DNA from: a virus
Direction: 5' to 3' (one strand)
Virus record (IMG/VR): IMGVR_UViG_3300025536_000010
Span: 170,887-234,886 of that record
DNA length: 64,000 bases
Shown here one piece after another: positions 1-18,399 of this stretch. The translations under genes and the position numbers were made by a program. The notes under the pieces were generated by a model. The model did no database searches. It had not been told where the DNA came from and saw only the letters and a program-made list of their open reading frames with translations. Within the stretch, counting starts at the first letter, position 1. Each line of letters starts with the position of its first letter.

Positions 1-1503
1 CCGCGTCGTGTTGTAGTGGCCTTCGCTCTTACCGACCAGGATGTCCCACTTCTCTTGGTTGGCGTAGTGCATCGGCATGATGATCTGCGGGACGTGGTAG
101 CCCGCAAACGTCCAGCGCCGCTCCGGGTAGGCGTGAACCCAACGACCCATGCGCGGGTTGACCGGCTGCCGGCACATCGAGCAGACCACGCCTGGGCACT
201 CCTCGCAGATGTCTCGGTGCCACTTCCCGATCATCCCCCATAGATCCCAGTTCTCGGATGGGATGTTCCAGTGCCCGCAGCCGCCGCGCAGACACTTAAT
301 CATCCACTCGGCCTGGCTGCTGTCCTGCCACAGCGACTCCATCGTATTGTCGAGCGACTTCGGCGTGCCGGCGTACTGCTTCAAGGCCCAGGGTGAGCCG
401 GACAGCGTCTCGTGGATGATTTGCAGGAAGTCATGATTCATGTCCTGCACTTCGTCGATGACGTTCTTGTCGGCCGGGATACCGCGGGTACGCTCGGCGT
501 CGAGGAACGCATAGGAGAAGTACATCGCGCTGCCGTTGATGAAGCTGCGCTGGAGGATCTGGTTGGTCGTCTTCTTGCCGGTGAAGAGGCGGTGGACCGG
601 CGAGTTGTCGATGAACTCCCGAACGTAGTTGTGGGAGAAGCGCCGGATCATCTCGAACAGCGGCGTGACGTAGAGCGTCGAGAAGTAGGGGATGGAGTTG
701 GAGAAGACCACGCCCTGAGCAGCCAGTGAGGTCGAGTTGTGGGACACGACCTTGCCGAGGATGAAGTTGTGGTCTTCTTCGACCTCGATGTCGACGGTGT
801 TGGCCTGACCGTCTTCGTAGTTAGCCCGCACGCGCTCCCAGGCCAGTTCGCCGCATTTCCCCTGCACCGCCAGATAGTCGCCTCGATAGATGTGGCGGAC
901 CATCAGGAACTGTTCAATGTGGTTGTCCGCGTCCCGGGCCAGCAGGCGGTGGTCAGGGGTCACACGGACCTTGAAGCCCGACTCGGTCACCAGGCAGTTG
1001 ACATCTTTGACGCCCGACTGCCAGACTTTGGTGACCTTGCGGGGTGTGAAAGTCTTCCGCGCGTCGGAGAAGGAAATAACAATGTCGCCGACCTTGAGGC
1101 TCTTGGCCGGTACACGCTGCCCGTCCGCCAGCAAAACGAGTTCATTCTCGTCCATGCACTTCGATACCTGCCGCCCCGTTTTGAGGAGCGTGGTGCGGGC
1201 CATGCGCGTGCGGAAGAAGGGCTCGAAGGGGAAGTAGTTGTTCAGCTTGTAGGGCTTGCCCTTGAGCTTGAGCAGCAGCGGTAAGATCGGACGGAGGGAA
1301 ACGCAGTTCCCCTTGCGCAGGAAGTGGCGGGCCAGGACAAGTTTCTTGGTGGCCTCGTCCTCGAAGCCAGTAAGCTCGGGCAGGCTGTCGTAGCCGACCG
1401 GACCAGCCCGGAGGAGAACGGACTTCATCCGTTCTTCCTGCTCAGCCATCCTGACTTCGTTCTCACCGTCAACAGTAAGCTGGTTTTCTGCGTCATAGTT
1501 CAT
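1..1503 (-). CDS. terL: Terminase large subunit, intein-containing, partial (3' end outside window)
   Basis: Read on the minus strand from ATG at 1503-1501 the frame stays open to the window edge (501 codons). The ATPase motor of DNA packaging. Joining residues 110-115 (GRQVSK) to the residues after the intein (STSLAAQG) gives a terminase-type Walker A. Walker B follows as VIDEVQDM (about residue 346). A Cys cluster (KCLRGGCGHW, DICEEC, CSMC) lies further on and is probably zinc binding. The P-loop is split by an in-frame mini-intein (separate entry). AAGGAAG on the minus strand about 8 nt before the ATG is a plausible ribosome site. The start overlaps, divergently, the first plus-strand gene. 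Motor function is inferred from family motifs; the nuclease domain is beyond the window. Confidence 0.9.
   Translation of the reverse strand, partial: MNYDAENQLTVDGENEVRMAEQEERMKSVLLRAGPVGYDSLPELTGFEDEATKKLVLARHFLRKGNCVSLRPILPLLLKLKGKPYKLNNYFPFEPFFRTRMARTTLLKTGRQVSKCMDENELVLLADGQRVPAKSLKVGDIVISFSDARKTFTPRKVTKVWQSGVKDVNCLVTESGFKVRVTPDHRLLARDADNHIEQFLMVRHIYRGDYLAVQGKCGELAWERVRANYEDGQANTVDIEVEEDHNFILGKVVSHNSTSLAAQGVVFSNSIPYFSTLYVTPLFEMIRRFSHNYVREFIDNSPVHRLFTGKKTTNQILQRSFINGSAMYFSYAFLDAERTRGIPADKNVIDEVQDMNHDFLQIIHETLSGSPWALKQYAGTPKSLDNTMESLWQDSSQAEWMIKCLRGGCGHWNIPSENWDLWGMIGKWHRDICEECPGVVCSMCRQPVNPRMGRWVHAYPERRWTFAGYHVPQIIMPMHYANQEKWDILVGKSEGHYNTTR
736..1158 (-). other. Mini-intein (141 aa) inserted in the terminase P-loop
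   Basis: Codons 116-256 of the terminase reading frame. The first residue is Cys (CMDENELVLLADGQRV, block A, then LKVGDIVIS). Block B is visible as VRVTPDHRLLA with the T..H pair. Block F is DIEVEEDHNF, and block G ends in VVSHN with Ser as the +1 extein residue. At 141 aa there is no room for a homing endonuclease, so this is a mini-intein. Removing it joins GRQVSK to STSLA and restores the ATP-binding loop between Lys and Ser/Thr. All splicing residues (Cys1, block B His, penultimate His, terminal Asn, Ser+1) are present, so splicing is predicted to be active. Confidence 0.92.
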
Positions 1504-1516
1504 GAGGAGGACTTCC

Positions 1517-1741
1517 TTGTCTCAAAAGCAGCGCCGTCACCGCGGCAAGGCGGATGATACCTTTCTGCCGCAGCGTGGGCAAGGTGCAGAGGATGAGGGG
1601 GCGGACTGGATCGTCGGCTGCATCGTCGTCCTGCTCGAAGGCGCCTGCGGCCTGGTGATGGCGATTGCCCGCCCCCTCTGGGATCTGGTACGCTTCGTGT
1701 GCTGGGACGCCTGGCGCACGGAGCCTAAACGCAAACCCTAA
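1517..1741 (+). CDS. Small membrane protein, 74 aa
   Basis: TTG start chosen because GAGGAGG lies just upstream (1504-1510). An in-frame ATG at 1502 would overlap the divergent terminase start codon and lacks a site. Residues about 27-50 (WIVGCIVVLLEGACGLVMAI) form one hydrophobic segment flanked by a basic N-terminus (KQRRHRGK) and a basic C-terminus (TEPKRKP), so a single-pass inner-membrane protein is likely. No family recognised. First gene of the long plus-strand array. Confidence 0.6.
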   Translation: MSQKQRRHRGKADDTFLPQRGQGAEDEGADWIVGCIVVLLEGACGLVMAIARPLWDLVRFVCWDAWRTEPKRKP

Positions 1742-1755
1742 CACGGAGGCCACGC

Positions 1756-1971
1756 ATGGCTGTGTCCCGTTCGGCCCTGGACTTCCTGCGGCGCAAAGGT
1801 CTGGTCACTGATATGCTGCGACCTGGCCCACGTCTCAACGTGAGCCAGCTGCTCGTTCACACCGTTCCCATTCCTTCGCCGCCCAAGCCCTTGCCGCACC
1901 TGTTGACGGGCTTCGAGGGCGACCCGCCACCCGACCGGGGCATGTCCAGGCCGTGGCCCGGACAACCGTAG
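1756..1971 (+). CDS. Hypothetical protein, 71 aa
   Basis: ATG preceded by ACGGAGG (1743-1749). Small soluble protein with a basic N-terminus (MAVSRSALDFLRRKGL) and a Pro-rich second half (IPSPPKPLPHL). No recognised domain, membrane segment or Cys cluster. It sits between two small membrane proteins in the same tight array. Confidence 0.55.
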   Translation: MAVSRSALDFLRRKGLVTDMLRPGPRLNVSQLLVHTVPIPSPPKPLPHLLTGFEGDPPPDRGMSRPWPGQP

Positions 1972-1985
1972 AGGTCGGAGGATTG

Positions 1986-2165
1986 ATGTCAAAGCACAAT
2001 GGGGACGGTATGCTCGTCCCCAAGTTCATCGGCGGGCTCATGGTCGTGGGCGTCCTCTGGACGGTCCTCACCGGAGCCCTGTGGCACTGGGTCGTTGTCG
2101 GGGTCGTGACTGTCATGACGCTGGCCGTGGCTAAAGCTGCCACACCGCCCAAGAAAGGTAAATGA
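1986..2165 (+). CDS. Small two-segment membrane protein, 59 aa
   Basis: ATG with GGAGG at 1977-1981. Two hydrophobic stretches (IGGLMVVGVLWTVLTGALW and VVVGVVTVMTLAVA) with a very short turn between, then a basic tail (PPKKGK). This fits a small hairpin inner-membrane protein. Holin-like topology is possible, but the position in an early-type cluster away from lysis genes gives no support. Its TGA overlaps the start of the next membrane gene. Confidence 0.6.
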   Translation: MSKHNGDGMLVPKFIGGLMVVGVLWTVLTGALWHWVVVGVVTVMTLAVAKAATPPKKGK

Positions 2166-2623
2166 TGACCATTACCGAGTTGGTGATTGCGGCACTGGCG
2201 ACCTGGGAGATAATCGAGATCTGGCGGCACGGTAGTATCTTCGCCGACCGGCGGGCCTACGCCCAGGCCGAAGGCTACGGACACTTCCTACGGCGGCTGC
2301 TCGATTGCGGCTTCTGCCTGAGCCCGTGGGTCGCCTTCCTGCTCGTGCTGTGCCCGCTGACGCTGTCCCTGGCGGTCGACCCACCACGGCACTGGTTGGC
2401 TGGCTCGGTGTGGGCGTTCTTCCTGTTGTGGCGTTACGCCGTCTACGCCTTTGCCGTTGCTCGGCTCGCCAACCTCGGTAATGATCTCACGCACTCGTGG
2501 TGCCGCACACCAGACACCAAGAAGCAGATCGCCGCGCAGTTCGCGGGCGATGATTCAAAAGCCACTTTAGAGGAGAGGCCGCATGGACCAGCAACCGATG
2601 CAAACGGAGAAGACCACGTTTGA
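2162..2623 (+). CDS. DUF1360-like membrane protein, 153 aa
   Basis: Start overlaps the previous stop (ATGATG at 2162-2167; either ATG possible). Three hydrophobic segments: LVIAALATWEIIEIW, WVAFLLVLCPLTLSLAV and VWAFFLLWRYAVYAFAVARL. The motif LLDCGFCLSPW resembles the C-x-x-C-x-x-x-W signature of DUF1360 proteins, a membrane family of unknown role. The hydrophilic C-terminus overlaps the next gene by 41 nt. Confidence 0.6.
   Translation: MMTITELVIAALATWEIIEIWRHGSIFADRRAYAQAEGYGHFLRRLLDCGFCLSPWVAFLLVLCPLTLSLAVDPPRHWLAGSVWAFFLLWRYAVYAFAVARLANLGNDLTHSWCRTPDTKKQIAAQFAGDDSKATLEERPHGPATDANGEDHV
2557..2569 (+). promoter_or_regulatory. AAAAGCCACTTTA copy of recurring palindromic motif
   Basis: AT-rich imperfect palindrome 13 nt upstream of the 2583 start, lying in the 3' end of the previous gene. 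One of about eight related sites (see findings). Function unknown. Confidence 0.35.
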
Positions 2624-2999
2624 CATGGCCGTTATGGCCAAGCTCAAAAACGCCGCCGACAGCGTGTTGACCGAGCACCCAGAGGTTGACTGCGTCTGTG
2701 CGGTCGTCTCCTGGAAGGGCAACCTCAACGACGCTGGCATCAAACACGGCATCTGGGTCGGTGACCAAGGGCCAGTCGGTACGGCCGAGGGCATTTTCGG
2801 CAGCATGTACCAACTAATAAAGATGTTCGACGAGCAGGCCACGAGGGCCGTGAAATACGTCGAGCATGTCCGCGAAAAAGTTGAGGTTCTGGGAACAGAA
2901 CTGAGGAACCGCCATGAAGAACTCGAAGCGGTCAAAGCAGAAATCGCAAAGTGCAAAGCCCAAGTTCAGTCTGACGCCGGAGGAACAAAAACCACTTGA
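2583..2999 (+). CDS. Coiled-coil hypothetical protein, 138 aa
   Basis: ATG preceded by GAGGAGAGG. The N-terminal half has a short alpha/beta-looking region (VDCVCAVVSWKGNLNDAG, GIWVGDQGPVGTAEGIFGSMYQLI). The C-terminal half is heptad-rich (VEHVREKVEVLGTELRNRHE) and predicts a coiled coil. No family recognised. The 3' end overlaps the RNase H-like gene by 86 nt. Confidence 0.6.
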   Translation: MDQQPMQTEKTTFDMAVMAKLKNAADSVLTEHPEVDCVCAVVSWKGNLNDAGIKHGIWVGDQGPVGTAEGIFGSMYQLIKMFDEQATRAVKYVEHVREKVEVLGTELRNRHEELEAVKAEIAKCKAQVQSDAGGTKTT

Positions 3000-3564
3000 G
3001 GACTTACTCAAGGACCACGGCGTCAAGAACTGGGACTTCCTCATCGTCGGTGACGGCTCCGGGTCGAACTGGAACCGTGAGGCGGGCTGGGGCGCAGTCA
3101 GTATCGAAAAAATCACAATGGAACGTCTCGTGTGGACCGGGACGATGAACAAGGGCACGGTCAACTTCGCAGAGATGATGGCTTACCAGCAGCCACTCAG
3201 CTGGCTGGCCGCCCGCGAAGAAGATCGCCGCGCCAAGCGCGCGGTGAAGTACCGGGCCTACCAGGTCCACATCTTCACGGACAGTGACTACTGCCGGCAA
3301 ACCGGCAACAGCAAGAACCGCCTCGTGGCCAAGAACGGGGCGTTGTGGGCGGCGTTCGATAGTTACGTTCGGCAGGGCTTCGTGCTCAACTGGCACTGGA
3401 TACCGCGCGGCAGCGTGGCCCTGAACTCCTACTGTGACAGGCTGTCGAAACTGGCAAGGCTCCTGATGAAAAAGTATAATCTCCAGGAGAAGCTAGAAAC
3501 GGAACACTCCTGCGGGGGTGTACCGCGGACAGTCTACGACATCAACCCGTCCGAGGCGGGGTAG
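2914..3564 (+). CDS. RNase H-like protein
   Basis: 216 aa. An RNase H-fold core follows a basic N-terminal tail: first acidic site in FLIVGDGSGSNW (about residue 46), a Glu in NFAEMMAYQQPLSW, a strand ending in HIFTDSDYC, and the last Asp in NSYCDRLSKLARL. This D-E-D-D order matches RNase HI-type enzymes, which cut RNA in RNA:DNA hybrids such as Okazaki primers. The window also encodes primase, polymerase and ligase, which fits primer removal. An RNase H-fold protein of another specificity cannot be excluded. Confidence 0.72.
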   Translation: MKNSKRSKQKSQSAKPKFSLTPEEQKPLEDLLKDHGVKNWDFLIVGDGSGSNWNREAGWGAVSIEKITMERLVWTGTMNKGTVNFAEMMAYQQPLSWLAAREEDRRAKRAVKYRAYQVHIFTDSDYCRQTGNSKNRLVAKNGALWAAFDSYVRQGFVLNWHWIPRGSVALNSYCDRLSKLARLLMKKYNLQEKLETEHSCGGVPRTVYDINPSEAG

Positions 3565-3572
3565 GAGGGTGC

Positions 3573-4073
3573 GTGATAATCAACGAGGGCCGATTGGAGG
3601 TGCGCTGGTATCGCCCGTCCGACATGGTACAGCTTGTTGGGCTGCATCAATGCTGCCTACCCAAGGAAGGTTGGACGAGCAAGGATTTCTGGAAGTTCGT
3701 CCATAAGGCCGGCACGACCAACATCCTCAAAGTGCTGTCCGACGACCAGGGCAAGATCGTATACGGTACGCTGCTGTACACCCTTGGCCCCGGTGAGTGC
3801 CGTCTCCGGCGTGTCTGTGTTTGGCCCGACTACCGCCGCCGCGGTCTGGGCACTTTCATGGTCCACACGACCATGACGAGCCCACGCAGTTCGCTCAAAA
3901 ACCGCAACTTCGTCGCCAAGGTCAAAGAAGCCGACGTCACGGCCCAGCTGTTTTTGCGAAAGCTGGACTTCACGTTCAACGCAAAGGAGGCGCGCGCTCA
4001 AGACGACGAAGGCAAGGACTACTATGTCTTTCGCTTCAAAAAGCCCGAGTTTGCTGCCCTAGCAACCGGGTGA
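3573..4073 (+). CDS. GNAT-family N-acetyltransferase
   Basis: 166 aa, GTG start with AGGAGGG at 3563-3569. Shows the acetyl-CoA motif A as LRRVCVWPDYRRRGLGTFMV (R-R-x-G-L-G near residue 90), then helix and strand elements ending in DYYVFRF. Resembles RimI-like GNATs, which acetylate proteins or small molecules. Substrate unknown. Modification of host proteins or defence evasion is only a guess. Confidence 0.78.
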   Translation: MIINEGRLEVRWYRPSDMVQLVGLHQCCLPKEGWTSKDFWKFVHKAGTTNILKVLSDDQGKIVYGTLLYTLGPGECRLRRVCVWPDYRRRGLGTFMVHTTMTSPRSSLKNRNFVAKVKEADVTAQLFLRKLDFTFNAKEARAQDDEGKDYYVFRFKKPEFAALATG

Positions 4074-4097
4074 CGGTATCGTTCAGACAGGTCTGTA

Positions 4098-4958
4098 ATG
4101 ACGACCACAGTCAAAGTACGAACCCACACCGCCCACATCGTCGAGTTCGAGGACAAAGAGTACGAGGTCAGCCTGCAACCGGACTCGTGCGTTGATGTCC
4201 AAGTGAAACGTCTCGCGGACGGGTCGCTGGTGATCGGTTACCTCGTCCAAGACACCGACTGTCAACACCCGCTCAACGACTGCGACGGCTCCGGCAAGAT
4301 CTACCGCCGCTACCGCGACGCTCCGCGCGAAGAGAAGGCGCAGTTCTACACGGAGATGGCCGTCGACGAATACGGTGAGAAAACTGGTAAGCCCAACCCG
4401 TACGCCGTGCTGCTCGACGTTTACATCCACTCTGGCGAGGTCTGGCGGGTCCACGGCTCAGGAAAGTATTTCCCGGACGAGCGCTGGGACGTCAGCAACA
4501 CAGCTGGCGTTTGGGTGCCAGACGAGTCCTGCGTCCAGCATATCGAATTGACAGCTGCACAACAGGTACTCGGCGACCGAGGTAAAATCCTCTTCGGTGT
4601 ACCGGGACGCTTCGGCAGCTACGGTTGGGAAGTCGGCACGAGACGGAAAATCGGGCTCAAAAGCCCGTTCAACGCGCTCCGCTCGGCTGTCGAATCCGGC
4701 TGTCATGTTGTGTTCCTCATTTCCTACGGCACGGAGTTTCGTGCTGCCGCTCGGCAAGAGGCCATCCGATGCGCTACCTCGGCGGTCGAAGAGTACAACA
4801 AATGGCTCTCTGGCGACTGCTGGGGCGTCTGCATTGACACTTTCGACGAGGACGGCGAGCCGAACGATAACGACTCCTGCTGGGGTTATATCGGCCAGGA
4901 GTACGCCGAGGAGGAACTTACCTTGGAGATGGAACACAGAGGCAAGCCAACGCCATAG
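4098..4958 (+). CDS. Conserved-looking phage hypothetical protein, 286 aa
   Basis: ATG start. The C-terminal part contains WLSGDCWGVCIDTFDEDGEP and DSCWGYIGQEYAEEEL, a Trp/Cys/acidic pattern I associate with uncharacterised phage proteins of early clusters. A Cys pair in VQDTDCQHPLNDCDGSG may bind metal. No catalytic motif is recognised. Coded between the acetyltransferase and a string of small genes. Confidence 0.6.
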   Translation: MTTTVKVRTHTAHIVEFEDKEYEVSLQPDSCVDVQVKRLADGSLVIGYLVQDTDCQHPLNDCDGSGKIYRRYRDAPREEKAQFYTEMAVDEYGEKTGKPNPYAVLLDVYIHSGEVWRVHGSGKYFPDERWDVSNTAGVWVPDESCVQHIELTAAQQVLGDRGKILFGVPGRFGSYGWEVGTRRKIGLKSPFNALRSAVESGCHVVFLISYGTEFRAAARQEAIRCATSAVEEYNKWLSGDCWGVCIDTFDEDGEPNDNDSCWGYIGQEYAEEELTLEMEHRGKPTP

Positions 4959-4967
4959 GAGGAGCCT

Positions 4968-5390
4968 GTGGTAAAAAAGAAAAAAGCGTTAGCCGTCAAA
5001 CTCGTGCCCGTCCCAAAGGCGTTCATGGAACAGGTAGAGAAAGCCTACTCGGCCGATACCATCGGCGGCCGTGAGCGCCTGCGTGATGTCTTTTTCTACC
5101 AAGGGCTGATGCGCACCACCACGAGTGTCATCTCCGGCGGCGAACGATCCACCGAGGCCACAACCTGGGAGGTCGTGCCGGCCGAGAAATTCAAAGGCAC
5201 GATCCTCAGCTACGCCGACATGCAGCGGCACGCCGACAACGGCACCTGGACATACGAGGGGATGCGCGTCCGCCTGGGTGAGGACTGGTGCGTCCTCACC
5301 CGCGAGATCCGTTTCGTCCTCGACAAGAAAGCGGCCATGCCCGGCGGCGCAGACAACCCGGCACGAGGTAAACCGCAAGGACTGTTCTAA
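4968..5390 (+). CDS. Hypothetical protein, 140 aa
   Basis: GTG start after AGGAGG (4958-4963). Lys-rich N-terminus (VKKKKALAVK) followed by a mixed alpha/beta-looking body (ADTIGGRERLRDVFF, WEVVPAEKFKGTILS, MRVRLGEDWCVLTREIRFVLD). No family recognised. Confidence 0.55.
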   Translation: MVKKKKALAVKLVPVPKAFMEQVEKAYSADTIGGRERLRDVFFYQGLMRTTTSVISGGERSTEATTWEVVPAEKFKGTILSYADMQRHADNGTWTYEGMRVRLGEDWCVLTREIRFVLDKKAAMPGGADNPARGKPQGLF

Positions 5391-5401
5391 CGAGAGACGT
5401 C

Positions 5402-5620
5402 ATGAGCCGACAGCACCTGATAGAGTGTGAGAAGCTGCTGGAAGAGTTCGTCGAGAACATCGACGACACTGGCGGGCTCGGCGAAATGAAACCGGGTGTA
5501 TTCGCGCCCCTGGCCGATCCATCCTGGTCGGACCTGGGTGACCTGTACATCCGGGCGTGCAAGGCTCTCGGCCGGGAGCCAGTGATCGAGCGAATAGAGG
5601 AAGACGATGGCGACGGTTAG
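5402..5620 (+). CDS. Small acidic protein, 72 aa
   Basis: ATG start, 11 nt after the previous stop. Acidic throughout (HLIECEKLLEEFVENIDDTG; C-terminus IERIEEDDGDG), a composition common in small phage early proteins that mimic nucleic acid or bind host enzymes. That role is speculation. Overlaps the next gene by 14 nt. Confidence 0.55.
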   Translation: MSRQHLIECEKLLEEFVENIDDTGGLGEMKPGVFAPLADPSWSDLGDLYIRACKALGREPVIERIEEDDGDG

Positions 5621-5867
5621 CTGGGGTAACGACCAGCATACGCACTTCGTCGGCCGCAACGGTTGTTTCAAATGCTCCGGCATTACCGTACAGACGACCG
5701 ATGGCGATAATCTGCTTGGCCTCGAACCGCTCACCAGCCGCGGCTTCACAGGTCGCTGCTGTATTGAAATCCCGGCGAGCGCCATCGACGGGCTGATTGC
5801 AGCGCTACAAGAAGCCAAGAGGGAGCTACAACCATGCGTTCCGGCACAAACCGCACCCAGGCGTTGA
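5607..5867 (+). CDS. Hypothetical protein, 86 aa
   Basis: ATG inside the 3' end of the preceding gene. Short beta-rich-looking protein with FVGRNGCFKCSGITV and GRCCIEIPASAIDGLIAALQ. The C-x-x-C plus CC could form a metal site. No family recognised. Confidence 0.5.
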   Translation: MATVSWGNDQHTHFVGRNGCFKCSGITVQTTDGDNLLGLEPLTSRGFTGRCCIEIPASAIDGLIAALQEAKRELQPCVPAQTAPRR

Positions 5868-6061
5868 GCCTGGCCCTGGCCAACGCCAAAACGGACGACA
5901 AACCCCGTTACGTCTGGATGTGGGACGGCGTATACTGGGTCGAGCGTGAGCCGCCCAAGGCTGCCTGGGCTGGAACAAATCTGGAAACGGTCACGGTCGT
6001 CAACCCCGAAGGCACGACCGAGACGTTTGACCCGCAGAAACATGGAGAGAAACAATGCTGA
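5834..6061 (+). CDS. Hypothetical protein, 75 aa
   Basis: ATG start overlapping the previous gene by 34 nt. Aromatic core (RYVWMWDGVYWVEREPP) followed by TVTVVNPEGTTETFDPQ. No family recognised. Its 3' end overlaps the Dcd start (AACAATGCTGA), so the two are probably translationally coupled. Confidence 0.5.
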   Translation: MRSGTNRTQALSLALANAKTDDKPRYVWMWDGVYWVEREPPKAAWAGTNLETVTVVNPEGTTETFDPQKHGEKQC

Positions 6062-6750
6062 CCGGCAAGCAGATCGAGCGCGAGGTGGAGCGAGGCCGCA
6101 TGACCATCTGGCCGTGGAATCCAAAACAGCTGAACCCCAACAGTTACAACTTGTGTTGGGATGCCCATCTCAAGATCTACAAGAAGACGGAGCCGTTGCT
6201 CCGTTGGTATGAAACGCTGGAGAACCTGCGCCAGCGCGGGGCGATGACGACGCTCGAAATGTACACGCTGGCGGGACCGAAACCGATCCTCGAACCGCTC
6301 AACATGCGTACGAAGGAGGAAACGGTCGACCTGCTGATTCCGCCGGACGGCTTGACTCTTTTCCCGGAGATGCTCTACCTGGCCGCGACCGTCGAGTTCG
6401 CCGGCTCGGACTGGTTCATCCCGGAACTGCACGGCCGCTCGTCAATGGGCCGCCTGGGCGTCTTCGTTCACGTCACGGCCGGCTTCGGAGACTGTGGGTT
6501 CTCTGGGCACCCCGAACACACAGACGCCTACGGTGCGCACCAGCAAGACACCCGCGCACAGTGGACCCTCGAAGTCGTGGCTGTCCACCCCATCCGCGTC
6601 TACGCCGGCGTGCAAGTATGCCAAATCTGTTTTGCAAAGCCCGTGCAAGACGCGGACCTTGGAGATCTGCCGCGCTACAGCGGCAAGTACGTCGCCGACC
6701 GCGGCCCGAAGGCGTCCAACCTGTGGAAGGATTTCCTCGAACACGATTAA
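6055..6750 (+). CDS. dcd: dCTP deaminase-like protein (Dcd/dUTPase fold)
   Basis: 231 aa. The trimeric deaminase signature is clear: ELHGRSSMGRLGVFVHVTAG (about residues 125-144), then GFGDCGFSG, the strand WTLEV with the catalytic Glu position, and HPIRVYAGVQVCQICF. Converts dCTP to dUTP (or dUMP in bifunctional members), feeding thymidylate synthesis by the ThyX encoded at 47516. Unusual: about 18 residues (HPEHTDAYGAHQQDTRAQ) are inserted between GFSG and the catalytic strand, where typical enzymes go directly to it. Whether it is mono- or bifunctional cannot be read from sequence. Confidence 0.85.
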   Translation: MLTGKQIEREVERGRMTIWPWNPKQLNPNSYNLCWDAHLKIYKKTEPLLRWYETLENLRQRGAMTTLEMYTLAGPKPILEPLNMRTKEETVDLLIPPDGLTLFPEMLYLAATVEFAGSDWFIPELHGRSSMGRLGVFVHVTAGFGDCGFSGHPEHTDAYGAHQQDTRAQWTLEVVAVHPIRVYAGVQVCQICFAKPVQDADLGDLPRYSGKYVADRGPKASNLWKDFLEHD

Positions 6751-6785
6751 CATATAACGTGCAACAGGAGCCGTAACGAGGTACA

Positions 6786-7157
6786 ATGCCACCAGAAAAC
6801 CGCAAACGCAGGCAACCGAAGAAAACAGGGCCTGACACAAGTACCTGGTCGGAAGCCGACAAGGCTGCCTACGCTAAGAAGAAGGCCCTGGAGACACCGA
6901 TTGCCGAGATGGCCCTCCAGGTGCGTGTTATCAACACGTTGGAGGACAACGGCGTCATCATGTGCAGTGACCTCATGAAACAGACCTACGAGGTGCTCAT
7001 GGGGATGAAAAACTTCGGGGACAAAACGCTGACTGAGGTCCGGGACGCCATCAAGGCCCTGGGCCTCGACCCGCCCACCTGGGCCAAACCCCCGAAGCCA
7101 GTGAAGCTCCCCAGGGCCAAGAGCCAGGGGAACGCGATTTTCGGCGACATGTGGTAA
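6786..7157 (+). CDS. Stand-alone RNA polymerase alpha-CTD-like protein
   Basis: 123 aa. A Lys/Arg-rich N-terminal tail (1-37) is followed by a domain matching the bacterial RpoA C-terminal domain: IAEMALQVRVINTLEDNG, then SDLMKQTYEVLMGMKNFGDK and TLTEVRDAIKALGL. Aligned to E. coli alpha, Arg47 falls at R265, Asn50 at N268, Lys80 at K298 and Thr81 at S299, the UP-element DNA contacts. The alpha N-terminal assembly domain is absent. It could bind promoters or activators in competition with host alpha. A helix-hairpin-helix DNA-binding role unrelated to RNA polymerase is the alternative. Confidence 0.8.
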   Translation: MPPENRKRRQPKKTGPDTSTWSEADKAAYAKKKALETPIAEMALQVRVINTLEDNGVIMCSDLMKQTYEVLMGMKNFGDKTLTEVRDAIKALGLDPPTWAKPPKPVKLPRAKSQGNAIFGDMW

Positions 7158-7159
7158 CT

Positions 7160-7564
7160 ATGAACACGAAAACGATGACGGCCGAGCAGCTGCTCGACGT
7201 CTCCACCCGCAGCAGCATGTTCGCAGAGGTGCAGCAGGAGATCCTTGCTCGTCTCGAAGCCTGGGACGAAAGCGCGAAGGACTACAACAACAAGATGGTG
7301 GAGTCCTTCTCGCGCTGCGCCAGTTTTGCGGTCTGCTCCCTGGCCGGCGCGCACCGTATGCCGCGCATGACCAAGGCGCAAATCCGCGAGTTCACAAATC
7401 TGCTTTTTGACTTCTTCTGTCGCGTCTGCCAGGAGCCGCAAGGAAAAAAGGACGAGCCCGAGCCTTTCGATATGATCCAGCAGGTATTGCAAGAATGGCA
7501 CGGAGTCAACCTGGCGACCTCTGCAAGAAGTGCGGCAAGCCCGTCCCCAGAAACGAAGCCCTGA
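7160..7564 (+). CDS. Hypothetical protein, 134 aa
   Basis: ATG at 7160 preferred over an in-frame GTG at 7151 that overlaps the alpha-CTD gene; neither has a strong ribosome site. Largely helical (AEQLLDVSTRSSMFAEVQQE, AQIREFTNLLFDFFCRVCQE). No family recognised. The last about 23 codons overlap the next zinc-binding gene in another frame. Confidence 0.5.
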   Translation: MNTKTMTAEQLLDVSTRSSMFAEVQQEILARLEAWDESAKDYNNKMVESFSRCASFAVCSLAGAHRMPRMTKAQIREFTNLLFDFFCRVCQEPQGKKDEPEPFDMIQQVLQEWHGVNLATSARSAASPSPETKP

Positions 7565-7683
7565 TCTACGCGGGCCTGCACGAGGACTGTTTCGTCCCCA
7601 ACCACGGCGGGACGAAGACAGGGACCGTCGTGCGCGCCAACAAACTACCGTCCCGCAAGGGGCGCTGTCCCAACGACACCTGA
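7495..7683 (+). CDS. Half-LIM-like zinc-binding protein, 62 aa
   Basis: Contains LCKKCGKPVPRNEALIYAG then LHEDCF, giving C-x2-C-x15-H-x2-C, one four-ligand zinc site. The spacing resembles the small protein at 53475-53696. Basic C-terminus (RANKLPSRKGR). It overlaps the preceding gene by 70 nt, so the true start could be later. The motif makes the frame credible. Confidence 0.55.
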   Translation: MARSQPGDLCKKCGKPVPRNEALIYAGLHEDCFVPNHGGTKTGTVVRANKLPSRKGRCPNDT

Positions 7684-7695
7684 AAGGAGCGTTTG

Positions 7696-9093
7696 ATGCT
7701 GAGTGAGACGTACCAAGCGTGTGTGAACCTGGAGATGACCCACAGTGCCCTGGTGCTTACGCGCCACGACCGCGAAACCGGGCAATCCTATGTCATCGGC
7801 ATCCTCCTGGTCCCCACCGCCGACTACGCCGAACACCTGACCAACATCGGCAAGATCATGGCGCAGCCGAAGTCGCCCGAGGTCATTGCGGACGAACTCC
7901 GCGCGGCCGGCTACCCGGTGCTGCGCTACAACACCGTCAACCGCGAGAACCCCTGTTCCGAAATCTTCATAGGCTGGCATCAGTACGGACGCTCCCGCCG
8001 TGGTTCTTCGTCCTACCTACATACTGCCGAGCGGGCCGACAACGCGCCCAAGGATACCTTCGGCATCAAGACCACCTTCCCGCCGATCAAGGAAACGCAG
8101 CTGGTGGAGATGGACTTCGCCGGTGCCGAGTTGGGCGAGTTTGCGCGCAACGTCAAGGCAACCGCAGCGGGCGATTACCCAAGCAACCAGATCTTCATCT
8201 GCCAGAACTGCGGCAAGAACTACGTCTACGGCCAGGCCAAGGAAGCCATCCACCGCGAGTTGGGGCAAGCAGGCAGACCGATTGCTTTCTGCTGCGCGTT
8301 TTGCCAGCGTGACTACCTCCAGAAGCGCGGCCGGATGCCCGCGGTCGGTGCCGAGATTCCGCTCGGCAAACCCGAGGTCTGTAACCTGCGTGCTGCTGTC
8401 GGCCTCAAGCTGACCATCAACTACAAGGACAGCATCGTGGTCGGCGACGAGATCTGCCTCGCGGATGAAGCAGACGTGCGCCAGCTGTTGAACGCCCACG
8501 GCGTCGGCGCCGAGGACATTGAGAAGCTACTCAAGGATCGCACGCTCGACCTGGCCGACAAGGTGCTGCACTTGGACTACGACACGTTCGGGACGGAGAA
8601 ATGGGCGAAGTCGATCAAGGCCCACCTGGACAAGGCCAAAGCCGAGGGCTTGATGCCGCAGGCATTGTTCAGTATCGACAGCATCAGTGTCAGGGCCGCG
8701 GGCGAGCCCATTGTGGCGGACCCAACTCCCGAGCAGTCGGCGAACTTCTTCAAGCAGGCGGCAGCTGCGGCGCACTGGGGGTACTTCGTCAAAGAGCTAG
8801 TCCAGAGTGCGCACAACGGGCTCATGGACGCTCGCGCAGTGAGCATCAACGGGCGGACGATCAAGGAAAACCCAGGCCGTACCGAAAACGAGGCGGACTT
8901 CTGGACAGTCGAAGGCGAGACGCGCTACGAGTTCCAAGATATTGCAAGCGCGGTCTACCACTGTCTCAGCCACCCAGGGAAGGGGTATCTCAATCTGTGG
9001 GCGCTCAAGTACGGCCGCGACGCCAGTGCAGCGGAGGCGCACGTCTTAACGGCACAGATCGGGGACGTGGTGGTGACCGGCGGCAGGCGCTAG
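7696..9093 (+). CDS. Hypothetical protein with zinc-ribbon-like site, 465 aa
   Basis: ATG with AAAGGAG at 7684-7690. N-terminal third: LVLTRHDRETGQSYVIGILL and ENPCSEIFIGWHQYGRSRRG. Middle: a four-Cys site, IFICQNCGKNYVYG plus AFCCAFCQRDYL (about residues 170-200). C-terminal part mixed, with LADKVLHLDYDTFGTEKW. No known enzyme motif recognised. Last gene before the 9.1-9.37 kb non-coding region. Confidence 0.6.
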   Translation: MLSETYQACVNLEMTHSALVLTRHDRETGQSYVIGILLVPTADYAEHLTNIGKIMAQPKSPEVIADELRAAGYPVLRYNTVNRENPCSEIFIGWHQYGRSRRGSSSYLHTAERADNAPKDTFGIKTTFPPIKETQLVEMDFAGAELGEFARNVKATAAGDYPSNQIFICQNCGKNYVYGQAKEAIHRELGQAGRPIAFCCAFCQRDYLQKRGRMPAVGAEIPLGKPEVCNLRAAVGLKLTINYKDSIVVGDEICLADEADVRQLLNAHGVGAEDIEKLLKDRTLDLADKVLHLDYDTFGTEKWAKSIKAHLDKAKAEGLMPQALFSIDSISVRAAGEPIVADPTPEQSANFFKQAAAAAHWGYFVKELVQSAHNGLMDARAVSINGRTIKENPGRTENEADFWTVEGETRYEFQDIASAVYHCLSHPGKGYLNLWALKYGRDASAAEAHVLTAQIGDVVVTGGRR

Positions 9094-9119
9094 GAGGGCG
9101 AAGCCTGAGCGCGTGCGAG

Positions 9120-9151
9120 GCGCGCTCCCGGCGTCGGGGGCGGGAGCGCGC
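9120..9151 (+). terminator. Perfect 11-bp GC hairpin, probable terminator
   Basis: GCGCGCTCCCG (9120-9130) and CGGGAGCGCGC (9141-9151) form a perfect stem around a 10-nt loop, 26 nt after the 7696-9093 stop. No U-tract follows, so it may be a Rho-dependent or mRNA-stabilising hairpin rather than a classical intrinsic terminator. Confidence 0.5.
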
Positions 9152-9288
9152 TGAACCTAAAAGCCATATACGAGGAGCCTGCGGCTCTGTCGCCGATGTG
9201 TTGAGGGAAGCCCGCCGTGGTTAAGCGCGACGCTCCCTTGACCCCTTAATAACTTCTTGGGCTCGCGCAGCGCAGCCCAGGAGAGATT

Positions 9289-9355
9289 TATAATAAGTAG
9301 GCTAGCTACTTAGCCTAAGATGTGCCCCAGGTATTAGGCTAACTGTTAGCCTAAT
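9289..9355 (+). promoter_or_regulatory. Putative promoter with two palindromic operator-like sites
   Basis: TATAAT at 9289-9294 is a consensus -10 box (no good -35 seen 17 nt upstream). Just downstream are TAGGCTA-GCTACT-TAGCCTA (9298-9317) and a 23-bp palindrome with arms ATTAGGCTAA and TTAGCCTAAT around CTG (9333-9355). Both contain TTAGCCTAA, spaced 36 bp. The second ends directly against the GGAGG site of the 9366 gene, so a repressor or an RNA hairpin could block expression. The rest of 9094-9365 shows no gene. Confidence 0.55.
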
Positions 9356-9365
9356 GGAGGTTTAC

Positions 9366-9851
9366 ATGGCTGTAACGTCGGCTTTTTTGCGAAAACAGGT
9401 GCGGGCGGCCAAAAACGCTGCCATGATGGCCGCCCGCGCCAGGCGTCGTACGGAAGCATGGGGTTGTAAGATCCGCTGGCCCCCGTACGAGACGGAGTTC
9501 GAGATCCAGGCTCATCTATACGCTGAACTTCGCGCCCTCGGCTTCCGTGTACGCGGCAACATCATGTCGGCCGACAACAACTTCCTCGACCTCGTCGTGT
9601 TCGACGACGCGAATAACGTCATTGCCCTGATCGAGGTCAAGAAAGAGATTCACAAGCACGACTGGGATGACCCCATATTCATGAAGGCGTTGCGCGCACA
9701 GGTGCAGCGTTATTGTGACCTCGGCGGCCCGGTTCACCTGATTGTCGGCATGAAGAAGGCCGAGGCGTTCTTGGCCAAGATTCGCCGTAACGGCGGCAAG
9801 CTGCCCACGAAAGCGTGGGGGGCGGCGTGTTTGCGTCAGGAGACGCCATGA
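9366..9851 (+). CDS. PD-(D/E)XK nuclease-like protein
   Basis: 161 aa. ATG at 9366 chosen for GGAGG at 9356-9360; an upstream ATG at 9354 would include the ribosome site. The pattern ETEFEIQAHLYAELRALGFRV, then NNFLDLVVFDDANNVIALIEVKK, gives the E...D...ExK arrangement of the restriction-endonuclease fold (Asp near residue 76, EVK near 92). Such phage proteins include nickases, Holliday resolvases and VRR-type nucleases. Specificity unknown. Preceded by its own regulatory region, the only such layout in the first 16 kb. Confidence 0.65.
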   Translation: MAVTSAFLRKQVRAAKNAAMMAARARRRTEAWGCKIRWPPYETEFEIQAHLYAELRALGFRVRGNIMSADNNFLDLVVFDDANNVIALIEVKKEIHKHDWDDPIFMKALRAQVQRYCDLGGPVHLIVGMKKAEAFLAKIRRNGGKLPTKAWGAACLRQETP

Positions 9852-10777
9852 GCTTACACGAGCACGATTTGATCTACCGCATCACCGAAGTACGCGGTGC
9901 CGAGCGGTATAACGCTCAGCGGCGGGCCGTATTGACCGGAGCGTTCCGCAGTACGGGTTGGACGCGGGAGGGCAACAAGAGCATCATCGCGTCCATGAAC
10001 TCGCTGCGCCGTCTCTGGCAGAAGCGGCTGGCCGATCTCAAAGCCGCCGCTTGGGGTCCGCTGGCCAAGGAGAGCCACCACTGTTTCATGCGGAACTGTC
10101 CGCCTTTCGGCGTGCTCACGCACAAGATCACCAGCAAGCCCTGCAAGCGCACCCGCGTCTGCCCGTTCTGCTACGCCCGGCAGACGGTCCTGGAGATGTT
10201 CCTGTTCTTCGAGCGGGAACTGTACGGCGGCACCGACCCAGCGTCGCGGGTCGCCCGTCTGGAAGGTCGGCAGCTGGTGGAGGTTCACGTTGACCGCGCC
10301 TGCGACCTGCGGCCATTTCCCGGCGAGGCGCGCGGACCCAAGATTCTCGACTACGGTCGGCGCCTGCGGGTCCGCGTCTTGAACGAGCATCGCCAGGACG
10401 AGCTGCGCCTGTGCGGGGCCAAGACCGGAGCGGTGCTCTACCGCCTGGAGCCGTTCACGAGTAAGCTACGGTTGGTCCGCAGCGGTATCCTGCTCACTTC
10501 GCAGGCGGTGCCGGATTATTTCGGCACCAAGTACGGCCCCAACGACAAGATCATCAAGTACGACCGCGTCGACAAGCACCTGCTCGCTGAGGTCGTCGGC
10601 CGCGTCTGCCGCTATCCGCGGCAGATGCTGATCGCCCCGGCCGAGGACGTCGTGGCGCTGTTGCGCGGCTTGCAGAACGCGCGCCTCCTGTCGTTCTACG
10701 GAGGCACGCCGAAACCCCAAAAGCCAGTTTTGGAGGAAGCAGACGATGGCGAAGAAGAAGGCACGGAAGAAGTCTGA
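9848..10777 (+). CDS. Zinc-binding hypothetical protein, 309 aa
   Basis: ATGA overlap with the nuclease-like gene and AGGAG upstream. A Cys cluster, HCFMRNCPPFG and CKRTRVCPFCYARQ (about residues 80-115), suggests one or two zinc sites. Helical basic N-terminus (NSLRRLWQKRLADLK). Acidic tail (LEEADDGEEEGTEEV). No recognised enzyme motif. The zinc-finger style recalls replication initiators of rolling-circle elements, but no catalytic Tyr/His motif is seen, so I do not assign that. Confidence 0.55.
   Translation: MSLHEHDLIYRITEVRGAERYNAQRRAVLTGAFRSTGWTREGNKSIIASMNSLRRLWQKRLADLKAAAWGPLAKESHHCFMRNCPPFGVLTHKITSKPCKRTRVCPFCYARQTVLEMFLFFERELYGGTDPASRVARLEGRQLVEVHVDRACDLRPFPGEARGPKILDYGRRLRVRVLNEHRQDELRLCGAKTGAVLYRLEPFTSKLRLVRSGILLTSQAVPDYFGTKYGPNDKIIKYDRVDKHLLAEVVGRVCRYPRQMLIAPAEDVVALLRGLQNARLLSFYGGTPKPQKPVLEEADDGEEEGTEEV
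10717..10733 (+). promoter_or_regulatory. CCAAAAGCCAGTTTTGG palindromic motif copy
   Basis: CCAAAA and TTTTGG arms around GCCAG, 13 nt upstream of the 10746 start, inside the end of the preceding gene. Member of the recurring motif family described in findings. Confidence 0.4.
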
Positions 10778-11081
10778 GGCATTCGTGCCTGAGAAGGTTG
10801 AGCCCGAAGGCGGTGTGAAAGAGGCCCTTGATCTGGTCGACACCATCGACCGGATCATCGACGAGGACATCGACGGAGAAACCTATTCCAAAGGTGAGGA
10901 TTTCTTCGGCGGCGTCTCCTCGCGCGCCGAAGACATCGGGGCCACCATCGAACGGACCAACAAGGTAAGTCCGGCACAGAAGCAAGCTCTCGACAACATG
11001 CTGGCCGGCGTCCGCAAATGGCTGCACACCGACCGGGACGACAGTCCCTCACGGACGCGGAGCCAGCGCAGGAGAAGGTGA
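10746..11081 (+). CDS. Charged small protein with EDFFGG motif, 111 aa
   Basis: Basic N-terminus (MAKKKARKKSEAFVPEK) and C-terminus (RTRSQRRRR) around an acidic helix (VKEALDLVDTIDRIIDEDID). Contains KGEDFFGGVSS, a variant of the EDYFG motif found in three other proteins here. No enzyme motif. Likely a nucleic-acid- or protein-binding accessory factor, by composition only. Confidence 0.55.
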   Translation: MAKKKARKKSEAFVPEKVEPEGGVKEALDLVDTIDRIIDEDIDGETYSKGEDFFGGVSSRAEDIGATIERTNKVSPAQKQALDNMLAGVRKWLHTDRDDSPSRTRSQRRRR

Positions 11082-11085
11082 ATTT

Positions 11086-11583
11086 ATGGCCGAAGAGATC
11101 ACGAGCCCGCCGTTCCCGAACATGGTGTCGGGCGGTGGCTTGTACGACAAGCTGCGGGAACTCCGCGAGTGGGTCGAGGGCTACCGCGAAGCCCTTAATG
11201 ACGAAGCCGGCCAGGCCGTCATTCCCGCCGTGGCTGAGTTCCCCGAGAAGAAGATGTACGTCCAGTACCAGCCGGTGCCGGTCCAGTTTTACCACTGGAG
11301 CCATCTGCGCCAGATCCGGCGGGAGTGGGACATCTTGCTCCAGAACTACGAGGACGCCTGGAACTGCAAACCGTGCATCCGCCAGCGTGTCATGCTGGTC
11401 CAGCAGGCCGCCCTGCTGCTTAACGGCGCGTTCATGGACCCGGAGACGCGCGAGGCCAAACAGCAGGCAGAGCAGGAGCGCATGCAGCGCTCTTTCGAGC
11501 GGTTGATGGCCCACTATAAAAACATCATGGACCCCGATGACGAAGAAGAGACGCAAGACCGAAAGAAGAAGCGGCGAGGCTGA
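11086..11583 (+). CDS. Helical hypothetical protein, 165 aa
   Basis: ATG closely follows the previous stop. Predicted mostly helical (LYDKLRELREWVEGYREALN, QAEQERMQRSFERLMAHYKN) with a very charged C-terminus (DDEEETQDRKKKRRG). No family recognised. Its 3' end overlaps the next gene by 47 nt. Confidence 0.55.
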   Translation: MAEEITSPPFPNMVSGGGLYDKLRELREWVEGYREALNDEAGQAVIPAVAEFPEKKMYVQYQPVPVQFYHWSHLRQIRREWDILLQNYEDAWNCKPCIRQRVMLVQQAALLLNGAFMDPETREAKQQAEQERMQRSFERLMAHYKNIMDPDDEEETQDRKKKRRG

Positions 11584-12142
11584 GGACTACTTCGGCTTCC
11601 TGGAGGAAGAGTCGGCGCCGCTGCCGCACCAGCGGCGCAAGTACCTGCGGATGCACGAGTGGCCCGAGGAGGCGCCGATCCTCACCGCCGACGACATCTG
11701 CTACAACTTCACGACCGACTCCGGTCGCCGCGACCTCATGGAGTGGTTGGAGGCGGCGTTCGCCCCACGTCACGACCGAGACGGTGTGACGCTGGTCGGC
11801 TACTGGCGCAGCAAGCCTTTCCGCCGGGCGACCAAGATGGTTCAGCGTGTCCTTGCTGAGTACACGGGCCGCGAGCGTTGTGACCTGTGGTTCTTCTGCG
11901 AAAAAAGCTACCGCGACCAACTGCCTGGTTACAGGTGGATCGCTGCGGTCTGGAACGAAGCCATGAGCCGCCTTGGGTACGACATACCCGAGAAGCAGCG
12001 GCGTGTCTCCGAAGAAGGCAGAATGTGGGGAGTTAAATGTGTTGATCCTCGTAAAGAGCGCAAGCCCAGACAGGGGCCTCGTTGCCTGGATGATCGCCCA
12101 GTCCGTCGCAAGCAGCCGGTTCACCGCCACGGTAAGCATTGA
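11537..12142 (+). CDS. Hypothetical protein with EDYFG motif, 201 aa
   Basis: N-terminal tail KKRRKTERRSGEAEDYFGFL carries the shared EDYFG motif (about residues 15-21). Body has ITADDICYNFTTDSGRRDL, VTLVGYWRSKPFRRATKMV and RCDLWFFCEKSYRDQL, then a basic tail (DPRKERKPRQGP). No known family. The last about 35 codons overlap the next gene in another frame. Confidence 0.5.
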   Translation: MTKKRRKTERRSGEAEDYFGFLEEESAPLPHQRRKYLRMHEWPEEAPILTADDICYNFTTDSGRRDLMEWLEAAFAPRHDRDGVTLVGYWRSKPFRRATKMVQRVLAEYTGRERCDLWFFCEKSYRDQLPGYRWIAAVWNEAMSRLGYDIPEKQRRVSEEGRMWGVKCVDPRKERKPRQGPRCLDDRPVRRKQPVHRHGKH

Positions 12143-12626
12143 CGCCAAGGACATACCGTTGCGCTATCGCCACCGGGCGGCCATCAAGATCGAATACGTC
12201 CGCCTGCGTCGCCGTAAGGATTACTGCGGGCAGCACCCTGGTCCCTGCCTGGCCCTGTTCCGCCGGCACCGTAAGAGTAGTTGTCTCGAAGGCACGGACT
12301 GGGTCGCGTTCAACGACCTGCTCAATGACGTCCTCGACGCCCTGGGCGTCGACGCCGACGTTTTCTCGTTCAACCGCGAGTCCATGTGCTCGCGCTACTA
12401 CATTCGTCGCGGCACGCGGCGGTTGACGAACTACCTGTCGGACTCTGTGATTCGTTCTGGGAGGCCGATCTATTTTTGGCGAGAGAACTACCTCGCCGAC
12501 TTCGAGGACTGGTGCGATAAAGAGGCCCCGGCCTCGACGTACCCCGACGACACGCCCGGCTATTACGCCAAGACGTTGGCAGAAGAGGAGGCTTGCCGTG
12601 CCCAGGAAGAGACAGCGTACGCATAA
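12039..12626 (+). CDS. Hypothetical protein, 195 aa
   Basis: GTG start chosen for GGGGAG at 12027-12032; the frame is open further upstream but that part overlaps the preceding gene. Sequence includes IPLRYRHRAAIKIEYVRLRR and VFSFNRESMCSRYYIRRGTR. No recognised domain. The end overlaps the 12598 start by 29 nt. Confidence 0.5.
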   Translation: MLILVKSASPDRGLVAWMIAQSVASSRFTATVSIDAKDIPLRYRHRAAIKIEYVRLRRRKDYCGQHPGPCLALFRRHRKSSCLEGTDWVAFNDLLNDVLDALGVDADVFSFNRESMCSRYYIRRGTRRLTNYLSDSVIRSGRPIYFWRENYLADFEDWCDKEAPASTYPDDTPGYYAKTLAEEEACRAQEETAYA

Positions 12627-13158
12627 CGAGTGGTTCTTCCCTGTGGAGCGCGGCGGACGCAAGTCCTGCACGCACTGCAAGGCGAAACTGGAGCCGGGTG
12701 AGTGGATCTGGTCGTGGTGCGAATACCGCAACGCCAAGAGACATAGCATCCGCGACGTCTGCAAAGCGTGCTGGCCAGCACTCCGCGAGGATCTGCTGCG
12801 GCACGAACGGCAATGCCCGGAGAACTGTACAATCAACCTGGAGATCCGTGGGGCTCCCAAGCCTGCGTGGATGACACTGCGGGAGGTGTGCGATGCCGCC
12901 GTTGAAGATATTCCCGGAGGATCTGGACAAATCCAGTGTGCGGGAAAGCCGTGTGTGGGTGAAAGAGAACCGGCGCGACGGTTGCCGGTGCCCAGCATGC
13001 CGGCAAGTGGTAGCAGAACGGAAGCGGCATTTGCACCACTCGATGGCCCGAGCGCTGCTGCTGATCTTCTGGTACTTTCAACGGAACCCCGGCAAGAACT
13101 GGTTGCATGTGGAGAGTTACCTCAAGCATCTGCCGGTCAGTCGGGCGCTTCGTGGTGA
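12598..13158 (+). CDS. Zinc-binding protein, N-terminal part credible, 186 aa
   Basis: GTG start. Residues 20-60 hold KSCTHCKAKLEPGEW and VCKACWPALREDL, a four-Cys zinc site, followed by CPENCTINLEIRG. After about residue 98 the composition becomes low-complexity (Ser/Ala/Pro/Glu) and overlaps the next gene by 266 nt in another frame, so either the two genes truly overlap or a frameshift joins them. No function assigned. Confidence 0.5.
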   Translation: MPRKRQRTHNEWFFPVERGGRKSCTHCKAKLEPGEWIWSWCEYRNAKRHSIRDVCKACWPALREDLLRHERQCPENCTINLEIRGAPKPAWMTLREVCDAAVEDIPGGSGQIQCAGKPCVGEREPARRLPVPSMPASGSRTEAAFAPLDGPSAAADLLVLSTEPRQELVACGELPQASAGQSGASW

Positions 13159-13429
13159 CTTTGCCAAGCTGCGGTTCTGGGGGTTGATCGAGAAGCGCCC
13201 AGGCGCGAAGGACGACGGCAACCCCAGCAGCGGTTACTACGCGATCACCGCGAAAGGGAAGAAGTTCGTCCGTAACGAGATCTCGGTGCCGCCGTACTTC
13301 TGGATGTTCAACGGGAAGTGCCGCGGGTTCGCTCAGGACGAGGAAGAGGTGTACATTAAAGACGTGCTCCAGAAGAAGTTTTTCAACTACGACAAGTTGA
13401 TGAACAACGAGGGACTCGATACCGGCTGA
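12893..13429 (+). CDS. Winged-helix-like zinc protein, 178 aa
   Basis: ATG after GGAGGTG. Shows DGCRCPACRQVVAERKRH (two-Cys site), a helix ARALLLIFWYFQRNPGKNW, then a winged-helix-like pattern: LPVSRALRGDFAKLRFWGLI, EKRPGAKDDG, SGYYAITAKGKKFV. The layout (helix-turn-helix, then a strand pair before a basic helix) resembles small DNA-binding proteins seen again at 33378 and 45643. Probably transcriptional or DNA-associated. Confidence 0.55.
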   Translation: MPPLKIFPEDLDKSSVRESRVWVKENRRDGCRCPACRQVVAERKRHLHHSMARALLLIFWYFQRNPGKNWLHVESYLKHLPVSRALRGDFAKLRFWGLIEKRPGAKDDGNPSSGYYAITAKGKKFVRNEISVPPYFWMFNGKCRGFAQDEEEVYIKDVLQKKFFNYDKLMNNEGLDTG

Positions 13430-13437
13430 GGTGAAGC

Positions 13438-15102: not shown

Positions 15103-15104
15103 TC

Positions 15105-15521: not shown

Positions 15522-15529
15522 GAGCCGCC

Positions 15530-16535: not shown

Positions 16536-16562
16536 GACTGGCGTCTTGATCGCCCTTCGGTA

Positions 16563-18371: not shown

Positions 18372-18399
18372 CTACAACTGACATCGAGGAGTGACTCCT

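Follow-up and report, generated by a model that had tools for sequence, protein, structure and literature searches.

The multisubunit RNA polymerases of jumbo phages are said to lack alpha (PMC7598289). Phage alpha C-terminal domains (alpha-CTDs) outside RpoA are known by annotation, from named phages and from a viral structure library. The Pfam family RNA_pol_A_CTD (PF03118) matches proteins of Goe8 (78.1 bits), Mazun (50.5), Morrill (42.7), Ruegeria V16 (41.4), CcrColossus (gp133, 27.3) and Mecenats66 (24.6), and in the structure library several phage proteins already carry the name alpha-CTD (best Foldseek E 5e-4), with 1 of the 65 matches at E up to 0.001 and those of Mithril and Finch at 0.03 and 0.06. 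The alpha-CTD proteins of the Microbacterium phages Mazun (gp26, L003) and Morrill (gp24, L011) are annotated as 'DNA binding protein'. An ORF of the Erythrobacter phage vB_EliS-L02 (L012:41542-42063) is annotated and published as an alpha-CTD, but Pfam finds no such domain in it. Its similarity is to the later part of gp133 of CcrColossus (L015), a protein with the domain at its N-terminus, and as a guess the name of the L02 protein may have been copied from the same-named gp133. No description of the function of a phage alpha-CTD was found in the accessible text of the open-licence literature (e.g. PMC7824862, PMC9127768, PMC12619734).

The window, the whole stretch of 64,000 nucleotides that was analysed here, comprises bases 170887-234886 of a 234,886-base IMG/VR virus record (G000). 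The gene of interest encodes a protein of 123 aa (P0001), and its features and surroundings in the window are as follows.

2914-3564, + strand: RNase H-like gene, marker of the conserved cluster (family scan, synteny)
3573-4073, + strand: GNAT acetyltransferase gene adjoining the RNase H-like gene (family scan, synteny)
6055-6750, + strand: dCTP deaminase-like gene, the upstream neighbour (PF22769, 94 bits; Pfam)
6766-6781, + strand: Shine-Dalgarno-like AGGAG (6766-6770) and GAGG (6778-6781) (sequence reading)
6786-7157, + strand: alpha-CTD protein gene, P0001 (ORF, Pfam, orthologues)
6786-6824, + strand: basic N-terminal segment, residues 1-13 (family alignment)
6876-7055, + strand: RNA_pol_A_CTD domain, residues 31-90, profile positions 7-66 of 67 (Pfam, fold, alignment)
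7068-7154, + strand: variable C-terminal tail, residues 95-123, net charge +3 (alignments)
7160-7564, + strand: downstream neighbour, beginning 2 bases past the P0001 stop (family scan)

An alpha C-terminal domain without alpha

The ORF is 372 bases long, from an ATG at 6786 to a TAA at 7155-7157. Upstream of it, an in-frame TAA (6774-6776) leaves room for just three codons before the ATG, which means that there is no alpha N-terminal (assembly) domain fused upstream, as the earlier note had said. The profile search that the same note proposed gives a match of 48.4 bits to PF03118 (cut-off 23.8, E 7.9e-13), the sole other Pfam entry listed being RAD51D_N with 13.2 bits. Of the 53 PDB sequence matches with E up to 1, 51 belong to chains of RNA polymerase and 50 of the chains are named alpha (best E 4e-8), while the NCBIfam RpoA models match with their C-terminal part alone, far below cut-off. 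These matches identify P0001 as an alpha-CTD without alpha. By its sequence it is an RNA polymerase alpha C-terminal domain, with a match far above chance level, and it does not belong to RpoA, as it has no N-terminal dimerisation/assembly domain. No sigma match was present in P0001 in the Pfam scan, and it is not therefore a fusion of sigma-70 region 4 with an alpha-CTD. The alpha-CTD region also matches part of the NCBIfam BREX_PglW kinase model (E 1.1e-4, far below the whole-protein cut-off), which may hint at an alpha-CTD-like domain within that defence protein.

In E. coli alpha, positions 265, 268, 294, 296, 298, 299 and 302 are those of DNA contact and positions 258, 259 and 261 those of sigma contact. 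When P0001 is aligned with RpoA of E. coli and five further cellular sequences, R265, N268, K298 and S299 fall on R47, N50, K80 and T81 of P0001, in agreement with the earlier mapping, and N294, G296 and E302 are kept as the same residues (N76, G78, E84). From these kept residues, binding of P0001 to the AT-rich minor groove or UP element would be predicted. Other positions differ, among them part of the sigma-contact surface: P0001 has E53 at K271, where each of the six cellular sequences has K; T51 at C269; A40 at D258; A43 at E261, where the remaining five cellular sequences have D or Q; and an acid, D79, at K297, which varies among the cellular sequences. The position of D259 is still acidic (E41).

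AlphaFold2 on the single P0001 sequence gave a pLDDT of 52 and this model was discarded. With a 23-row alignment, in which 22 viral alpha-CTD rows were added, the mean pLDDT was 85.9 and the pTM 0.62, and residues 21-90 had block means of 91-95. The top six structure rows (Foldseek, VIA-align) are alpha-CTDs with Z of 10.7-11.5 and rmsd of 0.9-1.6. The alpha-CTDs matched include 9dvt_A (62 residues, 0.9 A, Z 10.7) and 1z3e_B (67 residues, 1.4 A, Z 11.0), and of the 50 structure entries shown just one, a Dmc1 filament (Z 8.3), has a title that is not RNA polymerase or alpha. The prospect raised in the earlier note, that prediction might give a different helix-hairpin-helix protein, is not borne out by these nearest structures; since the alignment behind the model consisted of alpha-CTDs, the fold test does not add independent evidence to that of the sequence.

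Conservation of the gene and its surroundings

With the RNase H gene as query, the viral contigs yielded five loci (L093, L094, L095, L096, L097), and in all five the dCTP deaminase-like gene and then the alpha-CTD lie downstream of RNase H. With the window the arrangement is seen in 6/6 loci from about four lineages, as L094 is the G014 record again, L093 is a close relative of L094 with the same alpha-CTD protein, and L096 and L097 are a similar pair. The GNAT gene is retained in three of the five (L093, L094, L095). In G014 the order is kept as RNase H, GNAT, small ORF, dCTP deaminase, extra ORFs and alpha-CTD, the last of which is 48% identical to P0001 (52/108 aligned residues). Between the two the dN is 0.52 and the dS, which is near saturation, is 1.53 (NG86), and the resulting dN/dS of ~0.34 for this syntenic orthologue points to purifying selection on P0001. 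The downstream neighbour at 7160-7564, scanned from the GTG at 7151, had no family match.

Five distinct versions of the family were compared (window, G014, L095, L096, L097; the starts of the last three were hand-chosen). The orthologues match PF03118 with 53.8 bits (G014; 54.5 in another scan), 36.5 (L095), 46.3 (L096) and 51.1 (L097), and the other helix-hairpin-helix families listed for the five members are always under cut-off. All five keep an N-terminal basic motif, P-x-[NK]-R-x-x-R-x-P. Invariant residues include R6, R9 and P11 in the N-terminus and R47, N50, L52, E53, G56, N76, G78 and T81 in the domain; position 258 is A and position 261 is A or N throughout. The invariance of E53 and of the N-terminal basic residues indicates that the change of K271 to E and the basic motif are family traits. 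In L095-L097 the K298 position is R or Q and the E302 position is D or Q, so the DNA surface is not fully kept in those three versions. The basic tail of the earlier note does exist, with a C-terminal charge of +3, but the tail is variable across the family and missing in L096, and the conserved basic element is N-terminal.

In a short tree (35 rows, 63 columns, with 15 of 32 inner branches open and the bootstrap not settled) the window and G014 versions stand together (support 99/95) and this pair groups with the versions of the Microbacterium phages Mazun and Morrill (95/88). It is not sister to any of the 7 cellular sequences in that tree.

The single-protein scans found no close relatives of P0001 or of its dCTP deaminase neighbour, tblastn of P0001 against the phage collection gave one weak match (Mazun, E 2e-4), and the best E in PHROGs was 0.068. 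Two cellular alpha-CTD queries matched 26 and 29 phage records, many of them unannotated and four with an annotated rpoA on long bacterial-looking contigs; of the others, five were examined (Mazun, V16, Goe8, Mecenats66, Morrill). The plasmid search gave 4 records (E 2e-3 to 4e-3), three of which are rpoA, two by annotation and the third, an unannotated Streptomyces plasmid, by its open frame, which reads as RpoA; the fourth record is also unannotated. A scan with alignment A2, in which P0001 is first, gave 95 pattern matches, none confirmed. Genome contigs scanned with alignment A8 gave 91, again with none confirmed, and there is therefore no host or prophage clue.

RNA polymerase genes of the virus and of its kin

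The same record encodes RNA polymerase beta (G000:66967-70113, PF00562, 181-184 bits), a beta' piece (G000 about 72027-73787, PF00623 match) and a sigma-70 factor of 242 aa, with region 3 at G000:123695-123886 above cut-off (38 bits) and region 4 under cut-off (17.4 bits). The alpha N-terminal domain was found in 0/3 records (G000, G001, G002) with PF01193 and in 0/7 records with PF01000. Two further matches were rejected, the sigma match at G000:51331 (51.3 kb) being a small HTH protein of LuxR/GerE type (58 bits) and the weak minus-strand match at 27141 being background. The P0001 gene is ~104 kb from the beta and beta' genes, within a nucleotide-metabolism cluster. There are 5 sigma-70-like sites in positions 1-20000 of the window against 3.3 (sd 1.8) in shuffles, and k-mers upstream of the gene calls were not commoner than in simulations. 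This weak test, with its crude gene calls, showed neither a promoter motif nor a clear excess of sigma-70-like sites.

By eye, the end of beta (L022:8968-12114, or G000:C1 about 66967-70113) is an intein-N-like stretch, and the next polymerase ORF (L022:14028-15788, or G000:C1 about 72027-73787) opens with an intein-C-like stretch, after which come the C-terminus of beta and the N-terminus of beta'. As a candidate split intein, the two stretches, with a 637-aa ORF separating them, would link beta to beta'; the Pfam family Intein_splicing matches with E 0.0098, under cut-off. In the kin phage G001 (L071, G001:76000-92000), also by eye, beta is a single 1767-aa frame with two further intein-like insertions, similar split-intein halves directly adjoin each other and another intein-like stretch is in beta'. 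No description of a split intein in a phage RNA polymerase was found in the accessible text of the open-licence literature.

The records G001 and G002 have a 68% identical PolA and are colinear with the window from 34.8 to 16.6 kb at the DNA level and to about 9.8 kb at the protein level; they are alike in every search, and their contigs end about 3.5 kb beyond the colinear stretch. Both carry beta and beta', and G001 also sigma. The alpha-CTD was not found in their contigs, nor with its own HMM in their stretches L016 and L017, where the syntenic stretch stops near the contig end; these records and G016 may be fragments. A scan with beta gave G014 (66%), G016 (52%), G001/G002 and four records of 12-59 kb. 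G014 has both the RNA polymerase and the alpha-CTD (54.5 bits), and the alpha-CTD was not found in G016 or in the 12-59 kb pieces G015, G017, G018 and G019. Among the RNA polymerase-bearing records of the lineage that exceed 150 kb, the gene is thus present in two viruses (G000, G014) and not seen in two (G001/G002, G016). Sigma region 3 is above cut-off in all four lineage records tested (G000, G001, G014, G016) and in 0/3 other RNA polymerase-bearing records (G003, G005, G008).

Elsewhere in the window, 29968-33381 encodes uracil-DNA glycosylase, 3'-5' exonuclease and family A DNA polymerase as a single protein, and 34554-36725 is an ORF of 723 aa whose very long, repeat-like tail is rich in Asp/Glu and interrupted by KPAKKGK-type basic stretches. 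At the contig end of G002 (L017 about 16600-19720) there are ORFs in which HGRWTYPDGR-like repeats are numerous, and the corresponding part of the window contains other genes.

Other viral alpha-CTDs and the possible role of P0001

Scanning viral contigs with the alpha-CTD alignment gave 35 loci from 34 records, none of which (0/35, by length and sequence, with L033 cut at the contig end) reads as a full-length RpoA. In alignment A5, which used 22 of the 35 loci, those left out being mostly near-duplicates, the equivalents of R265 and N268 (R47, N50) are invariant in 23/23 viral alpha-CTDs, P0001 included. Ten of the 35 proteins, picked by eye and partly because they resembled fusions with sigma region 4, were scanned with Pfam and in 8 of these sigma-70 region 4 and alpha-CTD are joined (L031, L035, L038, L041, L044, L045, L048, L052); L031 and L044 also have a Cro/C1-type HTH. 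The remaining two are an NrdR-type zinc ribbon with an alpha-CTD and L063, without a second family above cut-off. By eye, 11 of the 35 loci resemble the sigma region 4 fusions. There are beta matches in two fusion records, G003 and G005, that of G005 (22.9 bits) being just under the cut-off of 23.4. Outside the lineage, 11 of the 34 records were tested for beta and 8 show none, so phage alpha-CTDs often occur where no phage RNA polymerase is detected.

As this virus has its own core and sigma and no recognisable alpha body, a detached alpha-CTD may help the viral polymerase to find promoters. The reading tentatively preferred, held with somewhat less than even confidence, is that P0001 is a detached alpha-CTD which recruits RNA polymerase, most likely the phage's own, to phage promoters. 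P0001 would bind promoter-upstream DNA via the conserved alpha minor-groove surface and, when bound, would help to recruit the polymerase to those promoters. Going by co-occurrence in one record, the partner would most likely be the phage beta/beta'/sigma-70 polymerase without a recognisable alpha assembly domain, and because that record has no recognisable alpha body P0001 would act in trans. It might be held there by DNA together with contacts to sigma region 4 or core, perhaps through the conserved basic N-terminus and the altered 258/261/271 surface. The presence of sigma region 4 and alpha-CTD in single chains, among them those of G003 and G005, records that also have a beta match, speaks for cooperation of the two modules. 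It is possible, if rather doubtful, that there is here a near-complete phage holoenzyme (beta, beta', sigma-70) from which the assembly platform has gone, leaving the re-charged alpha-CTD as a separate, trans-acting promoter-binding subunit.

The records without beta, 8 of 11, and the RNA polymerase-bearing kin without the gene make a host-directed role a serious rival. The interpretation in the earlier note is partly supported, namely as to the free-standing alpha-CTD, its DNA-contact residues, the missing assembly domain and the phage record. In the host-directed reading a free alpha-CTD would occupy UP elements or activator surfaces and so lower or redirect host RNA polymerase, or would help that enzyme to read phage early promoters. 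It fits the kept DNA-contact residues, the phage alpha-CTDs without a detected phage beta, such as that of Bacillus phage Goe8 (G013), and the position of a small gene amid small ORFs and nucleotide-metabolism genes. Host RNA polymerase as the partner is, however, weakened by the alteration of the 258/261/271 surface (A at 258, A or N at 261, E for K271 in 5/5 family members), in which the acid of D259 is kept. Nor need the partner be the host enzyme, given the beta, beta' and sigma genes of the virus itself, and the genome-contig scan yielded no host. Take-over of the host enzyme would seem somewhat unlikely on this evidence.

The Dmc1 filament among the fold matches, the dCTP deaminase and RNase H neighbours and the basic N-terminus would also suit a general DNA-binding protein for packaging, replication or repair that reuses the helix-hairpin-helix fold of alpha-CTD, with no role in transcription. 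This is improbable, as all five family members are alpha-CTD-specific (36.5-53.8 bits to PF03118) and the residues kept are those of alpha-DNA contact. That the C-terminal domain alone is present might even suggest a decayed or spurious fragment of a host rpoA, but the gene has its own start and ribosome-binding site, there are syntenic orthologues in about three further lineages, the dN/dS is ~0.34 and no sister was seen among the 7 cellular sequences in a tree of few columns. Such a fragment is contradicted by conservation and can be given almost no credence.

If P0001 does recruit the phage's own polymerase, recognition of promoter-upstream DNA can persist while the alpha assembly platform is lost, and beta, beta', sigma and alpha-CTD would be a defined gene set for reconstitution. 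The sigma region 4 fusions and the stand-alone alpha-CTD proteins of viral contigs suggest that phages have a class of such transcription factors. Within the searches made, a conserved, charge-altered alpha-CTD family carried by a lineage that has beta, beta' and sigma, and in which no alpha body is detectable, appears to be new.

P0001 has sequence, fold and minor-groove contact residues in common with the CTD of bacterial RpoA, from which it differs in having no N-terminal assembly domain, an added basic N-terminal motif, E for K271, T for C269, no acid at 261 and an acid at 297. Like the proteins named for alpha-CTD in Mycobacterium phage Mithril, Rhodococcus phage Finch, uncultured Caudovirales phages and Goe8 (c00050), it stands outside a full RpoA, and Mazun gp26 is also an alpha-CTD on a non-RpoA phage protein. 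The P0001 family differs in having its own signature, and its phage has beta, beta' and sigma, whereas the Goe8 record has no beta match. The sigma region 4 fusions likewise carry an alpha-CTD outside RpoA, probably for promoter DNA, but P0001 has no sigma region and the sigma factor of its phage is a separate gene. A word search of PMC7481178 gave 0 occurrences of 'alpha' and of 'sigma'. In PMC7598289 and PMC7481178, the multisubunit RNA polymerases of jumbo and mReC phages have phage-encoded beta and beta', as here, and to these the phage of P0001 adds a sigma-70 factor and a detached alpha-CTD.
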